NCBI RefSeq assembly: GCF_900101265.1
Contig: NZ_FMZS01000005.1
Span: 310,001 to 374,000 of the forward strand
Direction: 5' to 3'
DNA: 64,000 bases
DNA from: Massilia sp. PDC64
GTDB taxonomy: Bacteria; Pseudomonadota; Gammaproteobacteria; Burkholderiales; Burkholderiaceae_D
Shown here: positions 9,276 through 62,126 of the stretch, piece after piece
Position numbering within the stretch: the stretch's first letter is position 1
Layout: each line of letters begins with the position of its first letter
Program-made: the position numbers and the translations under genes
Notes under the pieces: model-generated
Databases searched by the model: none
The model's input: only the letters and a program-made list of their open reading frames with translations
What the model was told of the DNA's origin: nothing

Positions 9276-10859
9276 TCACGCGGCCAGCCGGCGCTGGCGG
9301 TTCGGTGCGGCTTCCTCGATCTGGAAGATGTTCACGACCGCGGACAGTTCGACCGCCTGCATGCGCAGCGACTCCGCGGCCGCCGCCGCTTCCTCGACCA
9401 GCGACGCGTTCTGCATCGTCATCTCGTCCAGGTGCGAGATCGCGCTGTCCACGCGGCCGATGTCGGCCTGCTGCGACTTCGTCGCGCCGCTGATGCGGTC
9501 CATGATCTCGGTGACGCGCTGGACGCCGTCCACCACCTTGCGGATGGTCTCGCCCGCATGGCCCACGAGCGACGTGCCCGCGCCGACCTTCGCCACCGAA
9601 TCCTCGATCAGCGCCTTGATCTCTTTTGCCGCCGCAGCCGAGCGGTGCGCGAGGTTGCGCACTTCGCCCGCGACGACGGCGAAGCCGCGTCCCTGTTCGC
9701 CGGCGCGCGCCGCTTCCACCGCCGCGTTCAGGGCCAGGATGTTCGTCTGGAAGGCGATGCCGTCGATGACGGAAATGATGTCGACGATCTTGCGCGACGA
9801 TTCGTCGATCAGGTGCATCGTGGCGACGACCTGGTCGACCGCCGCGCCGCCTTCGACCGACACCGTCGATGCCGTGGTGGCCAGCGTGCTTGCCTGGCGC
9901 GCGTAGTCCGCGTTCTGGTGGACGGAGGCGACCAACTGCGCCATCGCGCCCGTGACCTGCTGGAGCGTCGCCGCCTGCGTCTCCGTGCGGCTGGACAGGT
10001 CGTTGTTCCCGCTCGCGATCTGGGACGAGGCCGACGCGATCGTCTCCGTGCCGGCCCTGACTTTCGCGACGATGTCCGACAGGCCGTGGCGCATCGCGTT
10101 CATCGCGTGGATCATGCTCGACGGCCCGGCGCGCGAGACGTCCACGTGGCACGTCAACTGGCCGTTCGCGATGGCTTGCGCCACCTCCGTGGCCTGCGCG
10201 GGCTCGCCGCCCAGCTGGCCGATCAGGCTGCGCACGATCACGACGCCGATGGCGGCGCACAGCACGGTCGCCACGATGCTGAGCGCGGTGATCCAGTAAC
10301 GCGCGCCTTTCGCCTCGTCGCTCGCCGCGGCGCTCATGGCCATGTTGTCATGCTGGATGCGCTTGAGCAGCATGTCCATGTCCGCGACGATCTGGCGGCG
10401 CAGCGGGCTGCATTCCTGCACGAGAAACTGGCCGTAACCGTCCATGTTGCCGGCGGTGCGGTAGGCGCGCGGCCGTTCCAGTTCGGTCGCCATCTTCAGC
10501 ATGCCCGCCTTGACCTTCGCATATTGTGGGTCGTTGCCCAGCACCCCATCCAGCTTGCCGAGCGCCGCCAGGTAGTCGGCCTTGAACGTGTCGACGAGGG
10601 CCAGTTCGCGCGCGGCCGCGGCATCGTCCTTGAACACGAAGGCATTGCGCGCTGCGATGCCGGTCTGGGCGAGTGCCTCGCGCGCCGCGTACAACGGTTC
10701 GAGTGCGCTGTTGCGCACGGCGTTCGCCTTTTGCAGCGCACCGTCGATGCTGTTGACCCGGGTGACGGAGAGAACGGACACGATCAGCGTGACCGACAGG
10801 ATGAGGGCGAATGCGACGTACAACTGGGTTGCAATCCCGATGCGTTTGAGGAAATTCAT
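9276..10859 (-). CDS. methyl-accepting chemotaxis protein
   Basis: This is a 527-residue chemoreceptor. It has an N-terminal membrane helix (about 11-32), a periplasmic four-helix-bundle-type sensor (about 33-185), a second membrane helix (about 190-212), a HAMP region, and a long cytoplasmic coiled coil. The highly conserved hairpin tip is [23 protein letters not shown]. It would signal to CheA/CheW at the cell pole. The C-terminus ends NRQRRLAA without a CheR-tethering pentapeptide, so it probably relies on other receptors for methylation assistance. No che genes are nearby. The ligand is unknown. Confidence 0.93.
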
Positions 10860-59957: not shown

Positions 59958-59993
59958 CGCCTGCCCTCGCGGGCCTGCGTGAATCTTCTCCTG

Positions 59994-60620
59994 TTACTTG
60001 GGCGGCATGTGAAACACAGCCTGATCGATCGACTGGTCGGTGCGAATGTTCTTGCGTACTTCTTCGCTCCTGGTCCGATGCCTGACGATTTTTCGCAGCA
60101 GCAGGTCCGAGGCGCCGAACCACAACGTCACACGACCGCCCCCGGGATGAATGCCGGTGATGCGGCCGCAATAATCGCCATGGAATTCGCGCGACCGACG
60201 AAATCGCGGCCGGTTCAGCATTGACAGTGAAAACCCTCCAACGCATTCGAGCAAGAGGTTGCCGATGGTGTGGGCAGTGCCTTTGGAAATCCCGGTTGCT
60301 CCAGCGACGGCGAGGCCGAGGTTTTCTTCGATGTCGTTCCTTCTTACAGAGCCATCGTGTTCGACGCGAAAGTACGCTGTCGTTCCATCGCTACCAATGA
60401 CTACCTTGGTGACCAGATGACGCAGTGGCGGATAGGGATGAGGTCTTGAGAACTGAAACCGAAAGAGACCTGGTCGCGAAAACTGCGTCTCGAACCAGCA
60501 TTCATCGGGGCGAGTCGACCCTTCCCGGCGCACGTAGCCTTCGTCTGCATAACTGTCCAGCATACGGTAGCGGGCGGCGATTGCGGCAATGCACTCGCGA
60601 GCGTTGTTATACGTTGGCAT
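59994..60620 (-). CDS. hypothetical protein, LolA/DUF2092-like wording
   Basis: This encodes 208 residues if the ATG at 60620 (MPTYNNARECIAAIAARY) is used; an in-frame GTG at 60662 is an alternative, and neither has a good ribosome site. The chain reads like a one-domain half-barrel: SYADEGYVRR, ECWFETQFSRPGLFRFQF, FHGDYCGRITGIHPGGGRVTLWFG, LLLRKIVRHRTRSEE. That pattern recalls LolA-like or DUF2092 proteins, but no lipobox or export signal is present. GC content is below that of its neighbours. It belongs to the accessory patch 60.0-61.5 kb. Confidence 0.6.
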   Translation of the reverse strand: MPTYNNARECIAAIAARYRMLDSYADEGYVRREGSTRPDECWFETQFSRPGLFRFQFSRPHPYPPLRHLVTKVVIGSDGTTAYFRVEHDGSVRRNDIEENLGLAVAGATGISKGTAHTIGNLLLECVGGFSLSMLNRPRFRRSREFHGDYCGRITGIHPGGGRVTLWFGASDLLLRKIVRHRTRSEEVRKNIRTDQSIDQAVFHMPPK

Positions 60621-60828
60621 GGAATGCGGGTGGGAAAGGTATGGTAAGCAGAGGCACTTCACGACCGCGCCATTGAAATCTCATTATTTAGTCGCAGCAG
60701 ACGACTGCTTCTGGCCGATCTCAGCCGTTCAAGCCAGCATAGCAGGTTGCCGAGCTCGAAAAATCACGGACAGTCACGGCAGTCCGCTGCCGACCCATAG
60801 CGGAACTAGCCGTTTCCCAAAAGCGGCC
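60621..60828. other. gene-free accessory stretch beside attC
   Basis: I see no convincing coding frame, RNA gene or terminator here. The stretch is less GC-rich than the surrounding genes. Together with the attC it looks like decayed accessory DNA between two minus-strand genes. Confidence 0.5.
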
Positions 60829-60888
60829 GCTCAACACCTGAGTTAAGTCGTGCCGCGAAGCGGCGTTGGTATGAACGGACTTTTAGGC
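60829..60888 (-). repeat. integron attC-like recombination site (aadA type, 60 bases)
   Basis: Read on the minus strand, the site begins GCCTAAA (60888-60882, like R'' RYYYAAC, last base different). It contains the central AACGCCGCTTCGCGGC and ACTTAACTC, and ends with a full GTTGAGC (60835-60829), which fits the GTTRRRY crossover core. It aligns without gaps to the 60-base attC of aadA cassettes as I remember it. It starts 11 bases after the stop of the minus-strand gene 60899-61246, exactly where a cassette attC belongs. No integrase gene is in the window. Confidence 0.75.
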
Positions 60889-60898
60889 CCCTGCCGAG

Positions 60899-61246
60899 TC
60901 ACCAGATCTCCACGGTAGCCGTAAAGTCGCCTGGGTCGTGTGCGCGTATGACTACGGAAGATGGGACGAAGCTGCGGCCTTTATACCGTGGCTCCGCGGC
61001 GTATTGCGTAATCTTTCCCTGTTGAGCGAGTGGCATAACAGTGCCGAGGTCGATCTTTTGCTTCTGCTCCGCTGCCCAAGCAGGCACGAACACAACATTC
61101 ATTCCTTCTGCCGGACCGCCAAATTCTCCTGGCATAAGCAGCATAGGTACCAGTCGGCCATCTGCTGCAGCGGCCTGGACCTTTTCCCGCGAGTCCAATG
61201 CCGAAAAGTCCGGGCCGGCCTGCTTCTTCTTGAACCAACTGAGCAT
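60899..61246 (-). CDS. hypothetical protein, candidate integron gene cassette
   Basis: This encodes 115 residues starting MLSWFKKKQ behind a clear AGGAG (TAGGAGACTTTG before the ATG at 61246). The chain contains SALDSREKVQAAAADGRLVPMLLMPGEFGGP and VNVVF-like beta segments (GMNVVFVPAWAAEQK), with no known motif that I recognise and no signal peptide. An attC site starts 11 bases after its stop in the correct orientation. A short gene closed by attC and carrying its own ribosome site is the standard form of a gene cassette. The function is unknown. Confidence 0.7.
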   Translation of the reverse strand: MLSWFKKKQAGPDFSALDSREKVQAAAADGRLVPMLLMPGEFGGPAEGMNVVFVPAWAAEQKQKIDLGTVMPLAQQGKITQYAAEPRYKGRSFVPSSVVIRAHDPGDFTATVEIW

Positions 61247-61273
61247 CAAAGTCTCCTATGGGATCTCACTGAT

Positions 61274-61453
61274 ATGAACAGCCAGTGTCCGGTATGCACC
61301 GAGCCTGTCCGCTATGGTTTTGTGAACGACTCCTTCTGCCCGGAATCGGGCGTTTGTCAAAGCTCAGTGTACGACTTTTGTTGCTATAAGGCAAATAAAC
61401 GGTTTCGTCAGAGATACTCAATACCAGTTGAGTATTTCGACTCTGTTTTCTAA
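61274..61453 (+). CDS. small Cys-rich hypothetical protein
   Basis: This is a possible 59-residue protein (MNSQCPVCTEPVRYGF) with a CxxC pair at residues 5 and 8, then Cys22, Cys28 and a Cys-Cys pair near residue 36, in the style of a small zinc-binding protein. It diverges from the cassette gene by 27 bases. GC content is near 47 percent, much below the neighbours. The ribosome site is weak (GGGA, 8 bases off). It may be real or may be a chance frame in AT-richer DNA. Confidence 0.35.
   Translation: MNSQCPVCTEPVRYGFVNDSFCPESGVCQSSVYDFCCYKANKRFRQRYSIPVEYFDSVF
61414..61435. repeat. perfect 8-base inverted repeat at the edge of the accessory patch
   Basis: ATACTCAA and TTGAGTAT with a 6-base spacer, extendable to 11 pairs with one G-U, lie in the last codons of the small Cys-rich frame. 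It could be a terminator-like stem or a boundary relic; no long T run follows on either strand. Confidence 0.5.
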
Positions 61454-61505
61454 TGCCGGCAATTTCTGACATGAATGATATGGCCGAGGACGCGGCCGCC
61501 GTGAG

Positions 61506-62126
61506 CTATGGCGTTACGGTCAATCGGCCGAACACTTCCGCGAACGCCCGTCCTGCGGCCTCCGCCCTCGGCGCCCCGACATCGAACGTGCATCCGCGTA
61601 GCGCCGGCGCCGCCGCAAGGCCGGCCTGCGCCAGCATGTGCTCCGCGCGCAGCGCGCCCAGCATCCCGTCCAGCATGACGTTCTGCATATCGAGTGCCGC
61701 ATTGTCCGTGTGCCCGGCATCGAGCACGCTGGGTGCGAACGCCATCGACACGGCGCCGTAGCGGATCGCCTCGCGCATCGCCACGCGGCAGGCGCGCCGC
61801 AACATCTCGCCGTCCAGCTGCGCCGGATCGCCCATGCCGATCACCAGCACGGCGCGCGGCACCACGGCGGGCGGGGGCGATGTGATGAGCAGCGTCTCCA
61901 GCGGCTGCGCGCGGAATGCGCCGGCCGCGCGCAGGCGCGACAGGTGCCCGCCGAGCGCCTGGTCCAGGGCCAACAGGCCGCCGCTCATGCCGCCTTCCAT
62001 TTCGTGCTCGAACATGCAGGCGACGCTGAAGTCGACGTCGGCGCGGGACGGGCCCCAGGCCACGACGTCGAAGACGACGCCGTCAAAGGTGCCGATGGGC
62101 AGGCGGAGGGGAGAGGTATCGCTCAT
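61506..62126 (-). CDS. M17 leucyl-aminopeptidase N-domain-like protein without peptidase domain
   Basis: This 206-residue protein matches the macro-like N-terminal domain of M17 aminopeptidases (DFSVACMFEHEMEGGMSGGLLALDQALGGHLSRLRAAGAFRA; VLVIGMGDPAQLDGEMLRRAC). It ends where the zinc peptidase domain would begin. No frame for the catalytic domain follows, since the next DNA downstream is the unrelated accessory patch. It may be a stand-alone regulator/binding domain or the remains of a truncated pepA-like gene. It is divergent from the BASS transporter gene. Confidence 0.75.
   Translation of the reverse strand: MSDTSPLRLPIGTFDGVVFDVVAWGPSRADVDFSVACMFEHEMEGGMSGGLLALDQALGGHLSRLRAAGAFRAQPLETLLITSPPPAVVPRAVLVIGMGDPAQLDGEMLRRACRVAMREAIRYGAVSMAFAPSVLDAGHTDNAALDMQNVMLDGMLGALRAEHMLAQAGLAAAPALRGCTFDVGAPRAEAAGRAFAEVFGRLTVTP

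Follow-up and report, generated by a model that had tools for sequence, protein, structure and literature searches.

The cores of integron attC sites follow the consensus GTTRRRY for R' and RYYYAAC for R''. IntegronFinder 2.0 by default requires two attC sites for a CALIN (PMC9024848), and a further paper (PMC12901181, citing Loot et al. 2024) reports that cassettes can insert at attG sites. The locus considered here lies in a window of 64,000 nucleotides, the whole stretch of Massilia sp. PDC64 DNA that was analysed, for which the original prediction was a solitary attC cassette in a chromosome without a local integrase. A real attC does lie behind a gene of unknown function, and no IntI was detected; however, gene and site sit between the cores of another repeat, and a two-gene piece of a repeat array is a better description of the low-GC 1.5 kb than a lone integron cassette. 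It is likely that this segment is a fragment of an integron-like, non-integron system, which carries the attC cassette as cargo and at whose cores a short recombinase would act. Such a recombinase probably helps Massilia to collect single genes in a row.

The predicted aadA-type attC was borne out on the minus strand (Table 1), and is the only attC site found in the window. Its R'' begins about 10 bases beyond the stop codon of the 115-residue ORF (gene 1), which, as proposed, has its own ribosome site (AGGAGACTT ahead of the ATG). The crossover core R' is intact and fits the consensus, while the last base of R'' is A where the consensus has C. Over 59 bp the window site shares 84.7% identity with the attC of the aadB cassette. 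When an 801-base query around the site was compared by blastn with 72,556 plasmid records (7.3 billion bases), 2,467 of these matched, with a best E of 1e-10; the 20 matches listed of the 2,467 all fall at query positions 612-717, that is, attC and about 45 bases behind it. A search of Rfam at gathering scores gave no matches, and a loose attC pattern applied to the whole source genome found 11 places, as against 60 for a control pattern.

The weak arm pairing and the age suspected in the original prediction are both reflected in the fold. As single-stranded DNA, the bottom strand of the window site reaches -9.1 kcal/mol (z -0.8) compared with -16.0 kcal/mol (z -3.2) for the aadB attC, and it does not form a stable hairpin. 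Because it folds less well than its aadB relative and its R'' ends in A, the site, a genuine attC, looks decayed. The best score for the integron integrase model TIGR02249 in the source genome (7.5 Mb in 36 contigs) is 83.9 bits, below the cut-off of 265, in agreement with the absence of an integrase in the original prediction. Among 36 other genomes of the genus searched, one (G030) passes this cut-off; its true integron integrase gene (G030:C1:383641-384582, locus L006) is broken by an internal TAG.

Table 1. Features of the low-GC segment, with positions counted from the first base of the window
Feature	Position	Strand	Sequence or basis
attC site of aadA/aadB type, apparently decayed	60829-60889	minus	GGCCTAAAAGTCCGTTCATACCAACGCCGCTTCGCGGCACGACTTAACTCAGGTGTTGAGC; R'' GCCTAAA, R' GTTGAGC; aadB match, fold
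Gene 1, 115-residue protein, function unknown	60899-61246 including stop	minus	ATG at 61246; ORF list
Gene 2, 222-residue ORF (208 from ATG at 60620), function unknown	59994-60662	minus	ORF list
Full 105-bp repeat	60701-60806	minus	Left and right core on either side of an interior with TGCTATGCT; model R1, of which this copy is part, gives 96.4 bits
Left core of repeat	60789-60805	minus	TTCCGCTATGGGTCGGC; matrix 22.0 bits, 0/300 shuffles
Right core of repeat	60701-60726	minus	GGCTGAGATCGGCCAGAAGCAGTCGT; matrix 38.2 bits, 0/300 shuffles; copy in training set
Right core alone, array start	61326-61351	minus	GCCCGATTCCGGGCAGAAGGAGTCGT; matrix 16.9 bits, reached in 1/300 shuffles
Stretch absent from congeners G009, G069 and G070	about 59958-61525		Flank comparison

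Overlooked in the original prediction were a 105-bp repeat and a half copy of it. Read along the minus strand, the order in the window is right core, gene 1, attC, 22 bp, left core, interior, right core and gene 2; a matrix scan found no left core behind gene 2. Aligned copies show the architecture GTCCGCTTnGGGTCGGTTCCGGCC, an interior with GGCAACCTGCTATGCTG, then CGGCCGnGnTCGGCCAGAAGCGGnCGTT. In general form the left core, behind one gene, is GTCCGCTTnGGGTCG and the right core, before the next, is TCGGCCAnAAGCGGACnTT, and a conserved extended -10-like sequence lies in the interior. Right behind the half copy, the plus strand carries another core-like sequence (61307-61323, GTCCGCTATGGTTTTGT, 10.5 bits, a score reached in about 5% of shuffles), which may be what remains of a unit that was nested there or has been lost. 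A flank resembling that behind the window attC also follows the last attC of Tn402-type integrons (L010 1562-1606, L011 1559-1603), where the attC is succeeded by about 22 bp and then by GGGTCG at the same distance as in the window, with the left-core-like sequence GCTCTGGGTCG; scored as a left core, this flank is weak (E 0.41).

The repeat is widespread in the genus. Some match to the whole insert was found in 43 of 62 Massilia genomes, and nearly all the places listed correspond to about 60691-60812, behind the attC. With a covariance model built from 32 copies, the window copy included, repeats were detected in 59 of the 62 genomes, with up to 56 copies in one and 13 in the source genome. 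The same arrays also contain shorter versions, about 66 bp long, and the overall range is 66-111 bp. Named records with copies include M. aurea, M. rhizosphaerae, Oxalobacteraceae sp. CFBP 13730 and Janthinobacterium. A class-wide search with the Massilia model found the repeat in nine of 369 genomes, counting the source genome, outside which the matches are mostly short divergent relatives; the model does not gauge the true spread. Long inverted ends are present in the repeats, and the possibility that the 105-bp repeat is itself a new attC was considered and rejected. The arms pair in the 32 full copies without co-variation (81.6% of cells paired vs 81.3% after shuffling), and RNAalifold found no structure across all 37 rows, half copies included. 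The lack of arm co-variation argues against an attC-like site folded from a single strand, and fits two double-stranded cores that are exchanged separately.

The predicted fall in GC was confirmed, with values of 0.52-0.58 at 60.0-61.5 kb and 0.63-0.73 on both sides. The right-hand flanking gene was found in nine congeners, two of which match one flank only. Amongst the seven with both flanks placed, three (G009, G069 and G070) have an empty locus in which the flanks are about 25 bp apart, and the other four carry different genes there. The stretch missing from the three takes in gene 2 as well as gene 1 and the attC. The original prediction had to reckon with gene 1 and its flank being conserved in relatives; this was not seen, the gene occurring in none of 60 relatives, and a search of the genome-contig collection with the 115-residue protein gave no match. 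From these comparisons gene 1 looks like a strain-specific gain, and the whole low-GC segment looks like a recent one. At the same insertion locus in four other congeners (L065, L068, L069 and L070) the genes differ, with ORFs that, named from their letters, are flavin oxidoreductase-like in three and TnpB-like in one; given this variety, the locus may be a general hotspot.

No match to the gene 1 protein was found in Pfam, NCBIfam, PHROGs or PADLOC, and a single-sequence AlphaFold prediction of its structure was too poor to use (mean pLDDT 44). Plasmid records yielded one relative (50% identity), on a Cupriavidus oxalaticus plasmid, and inspection by eye of the 160 bases before and 260 behind this relative found no attC and no core. 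For gene 2, searched without its last five residues, there was no Pfam family above cut-off and no plasmid match.

Elsewhere in Massilia, the repeats delimit arrays of single genes. In 39 non-overlapping loci, chosen for holding repeats or recombinase, 148 copies exceed 35 bits, and all 98 pairs of neighbours less than 3 kb apart have the same orientation; an earlier count in which some loci were duplicated gave 101/101. The stretches between repeats have a median length of 590 bp and a GC of 0.51 (100 stretches, some duplicated). In 79 of these 100 the longest ORF runs in the sense direction, and for 54 of these the stop lies no more than 60 bases from the repeat that follows. The cargo is diverse: 93 proteins, amongst them the two of the window and one recombinase copy, match 62 Pfam families, of which ten, including GNAT, SUKH, TonB C-terminal and esterase, are represented by two or three proteins and others, such as Imm33-like, BrnA and LprI, by one. 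An attC-like pattern precedes four repeats, that of the window included, against 1.25 expected from shuffles; none of the other array loci examined has an attC of the aadA/aadB type. A larger array in the source genome (G000:C17:192812-194693; L054 3300-6100) contains four copies of the repeat, separated by small genes.

A candidate enzyme is encoded at L104 (17038-17658), where a 207-residue ORF lies between two repeat sets that point away from each other. The protein is a tyrosine recombinase that matches Pfam PF00589 only and falls below every NCBIfam cut-off. The nearest PDB structures are XerC-like 4a8e and XerH 5jjv (E about 6e-7), and a likeness to FimB/FimE is seen in a score of 24.3 bits with the invertase model PRK09871. 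The active-site residues R58, K86, H181 and Y190, the last being the catalytic tyrosine, are invariant in 20 members and H155 and R158 nearly so, while one Massilia copy (L176) is broken in the active-site region. The recombinase was found in 13 of the 62 genomes of the genus, and was not found in the source genome. Of 18 congener recombinase loci, 16 have a repeat match within 4 kb and 11 have a strong one (>40 bits). The two that lack any match within 4 kb are L179, cut off by the end of its contig, and L187, whose nearest copy is 6.2 kb away. A lone right half stands about 100 bp before the recombinase gene and diverging from it in L180, L181 and L189, and in L183 and L185 a right part follows the gene at a distance of 37 and 46 bp, respectively; all of these are weak (16-27 bits).

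Outwith the genus, the short recombinase was detected in 57 of 398 genomes of a phylum sample (E 1e-40) and in 366 of the 72,556 plasmid records. From 36 recombinase loci beyond Massilia, 40 gene ends were readable. The stop codon is often followed by a hairpin and then by sequence like CCGGCCAGAAGCGGACTT. A matrix derived from Massilia array repeats only was applied to 160-base windows and compared with 2,160 random windows from the same loci: 16 of the 40 downstream windows and none of the 40 upstream reached at least the 99th percentile (Mann-Whitney p 1e-16 downstream, 0.17 upstream), leaving 24 gene ends below it. A strict core pattern was present in 13/40 downstream vs 1/40 upstream. This enrichment indicates that the right core of the arrays accompanies the short recombinase. 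The gene tables of four annotated plasmids show no obvious repeat array behind the recombinase gene, so the enzyme may also occur without arrays. In another member of the phylum (L205), three single-palindrome core relatives of 30-40 bp follow the recombinase at 10268, 11567 and 12302, with gene-like spacing; this is a simpler form of the same arrangement.

The same cassette was found in different species and in different arrays. In clean cases, identity sets in at the right core that precedes the gene and ends at a core behind it. That shared by L055 and L180 ends in GTCCGCTTTGGGTCGG, with divergence after, and L103 and L179 have the same end point though the repeat is 111 bp long in one copy and 66 bp in the other; L061 and L104 behave likewise. 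Of 31 shared blocks (36 less five IS-like ones), 14 start at a right core, compared with 6.7% of random points, and for 17 the end falls at a core of either kind, compared with 9.9%. The remaining 17 starts and 14 ends lie away from cores, partly because related repeats lengthen the alignments. With narrower windows and all 36 blocks, 13 starts coincide with a right core (random 9.7%) and five ends with a left core (2.7%). The blocks include within-genome pairs, and one pair enters twice (L101/L104 and L104/L123). Recombinase loci of different species are also alike up to the core and unlike behind it (L180/L181 and L104/L186). In repeats around shared cassettes, identity is 0.90-0.94 at positions 1-12 downstream vs 0.49-0.59 for random pairings, and 0.98 at positions 91-96 upstream vs 0.81; with eight usable pairs, this profile is supportive but small.

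These results bear on three other explanations. It seems unlikely that gene 1 and its attC are a plain integron cassette, inserted by a visiting IntI at an attG-like chromosomal site, with the repeat unrelated. The attC is real, the source genome has no IntI above cut-off and PMC12901181 offers a precedent for such insertion, but the congeners lack the whole 1.5 kb including gene 2 and the repeats, no GTTRRRY boundary is visible by eye ahead of gene 1, and a half repeat stands there as well. An accidental likeness to attC, with no integron relict at all, is extremely improbable; although R'' deviates and the fold is weak, an E of 1e-10 in 7.3 billion bases of plasmid records, with a match collinear along the site, shows that chance is not the source of the likeness.

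The repeats might instead be MITE- or REP-like elements spread by transposition, with the recombinase a plasmid resolvase that is nearby by chance. Long inverted ends, the many copies and the frequency of the recombinase on plasmids (the 366 records above) would suit such elements, yet none of the 98 neighbouring pairs is opposed, about one gene lies between repeats, a core goes with the recombinase gene beyond the genus and block ends favour cores, so that this explanation appears very doubtful. The gap between the distribution of the repeats (59/62 congeners) and that of the recombinase (13/62) speaks against the reading preferred here, namely a fragment of an integron-like array. The same is true of the block starts and ends away from cores, the weak right halves next to the recombinase in Massilia, the gene ends below the 99th percentile, the four plasmids with no obvious array and the left core not found behind gene 2.

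If that reading is correct, a recombinase consisting of the catalytic domain only would join directly oriented cores of like kind. Exchange between two right cores would move a gene with the repeat that follows it, exchange between two left cores would take the gene along with the interior, and the two exchanges combined would transfer nothing but the gene. An attI-like entry site would be provided by the core next to the recombinase gene, and single genes could be captured, excised and shuffled by recombination at cores. The conserved TGCTATGCT suggests that the interior supplies a promoter, and each gene may bring or receive one. Gene 1 and its attC would be an integron cassette that entered the array as cargo, where the attC would have decayed because the genome has no IntI. 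The arrays of the source genome, which lack the short recombinase, would be the counterpart of CALIN.

On balance, we lean slightly towards a broader proposal: a second, independent capture system in the Pseudomonadota, which would combine a catalytic-domain-only recombinase and its core with two-core, promoter-bearing repeats, work without IntI, attI or attC, and exchange cargo with integrons, the attC unit of the window being one such transfer. No description of a system of this kind was recognised in a literature search covering titles and the beginnings of abstracts, with most subscription journals and bioRxiv outside its coverage. One core string turns up in one unrelated plant paper. If the proposal is true, integrons are not the sole natural device that gathers single genes into an ordered array. 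Numerous small genes to which no function is assigned, in Massilia and possibly also in other carriers of the recombinase, could then be recognised as mobile cargo, and a route for cassettes out of integrons would become visible.

Amongst known systems, the short tyrosine recombinases of the Xer and FimB types share the catalytic fold of the Massilia enzyme, for which, unlike them, neither dif-like use nor an invertible switch was seen. The window resembles a CALIN or single attC in having an attC without a neighbouring integron integrase, but it has one attC, below the default of two, and this sits inside another type of array. The differences from integrons are that the recombinase of the Massilia arrays has 207 residues and a catalytic domain only (30.8 vs 265 bits for TIGR02249), and that the repeats have two cores, arms that do not co-vary, a promoter-like interior and no attC features. 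The likenesses are that the arrays consist of single-gene units in one orientation, with short recombination-type sites between them and diverse cargo, and that a tyrosine recombinase gene adjoins a putative site. Although two tested defining features of integrons, IntI and attC between the genes, fail in the Massilia arrays, their design is integron-like.
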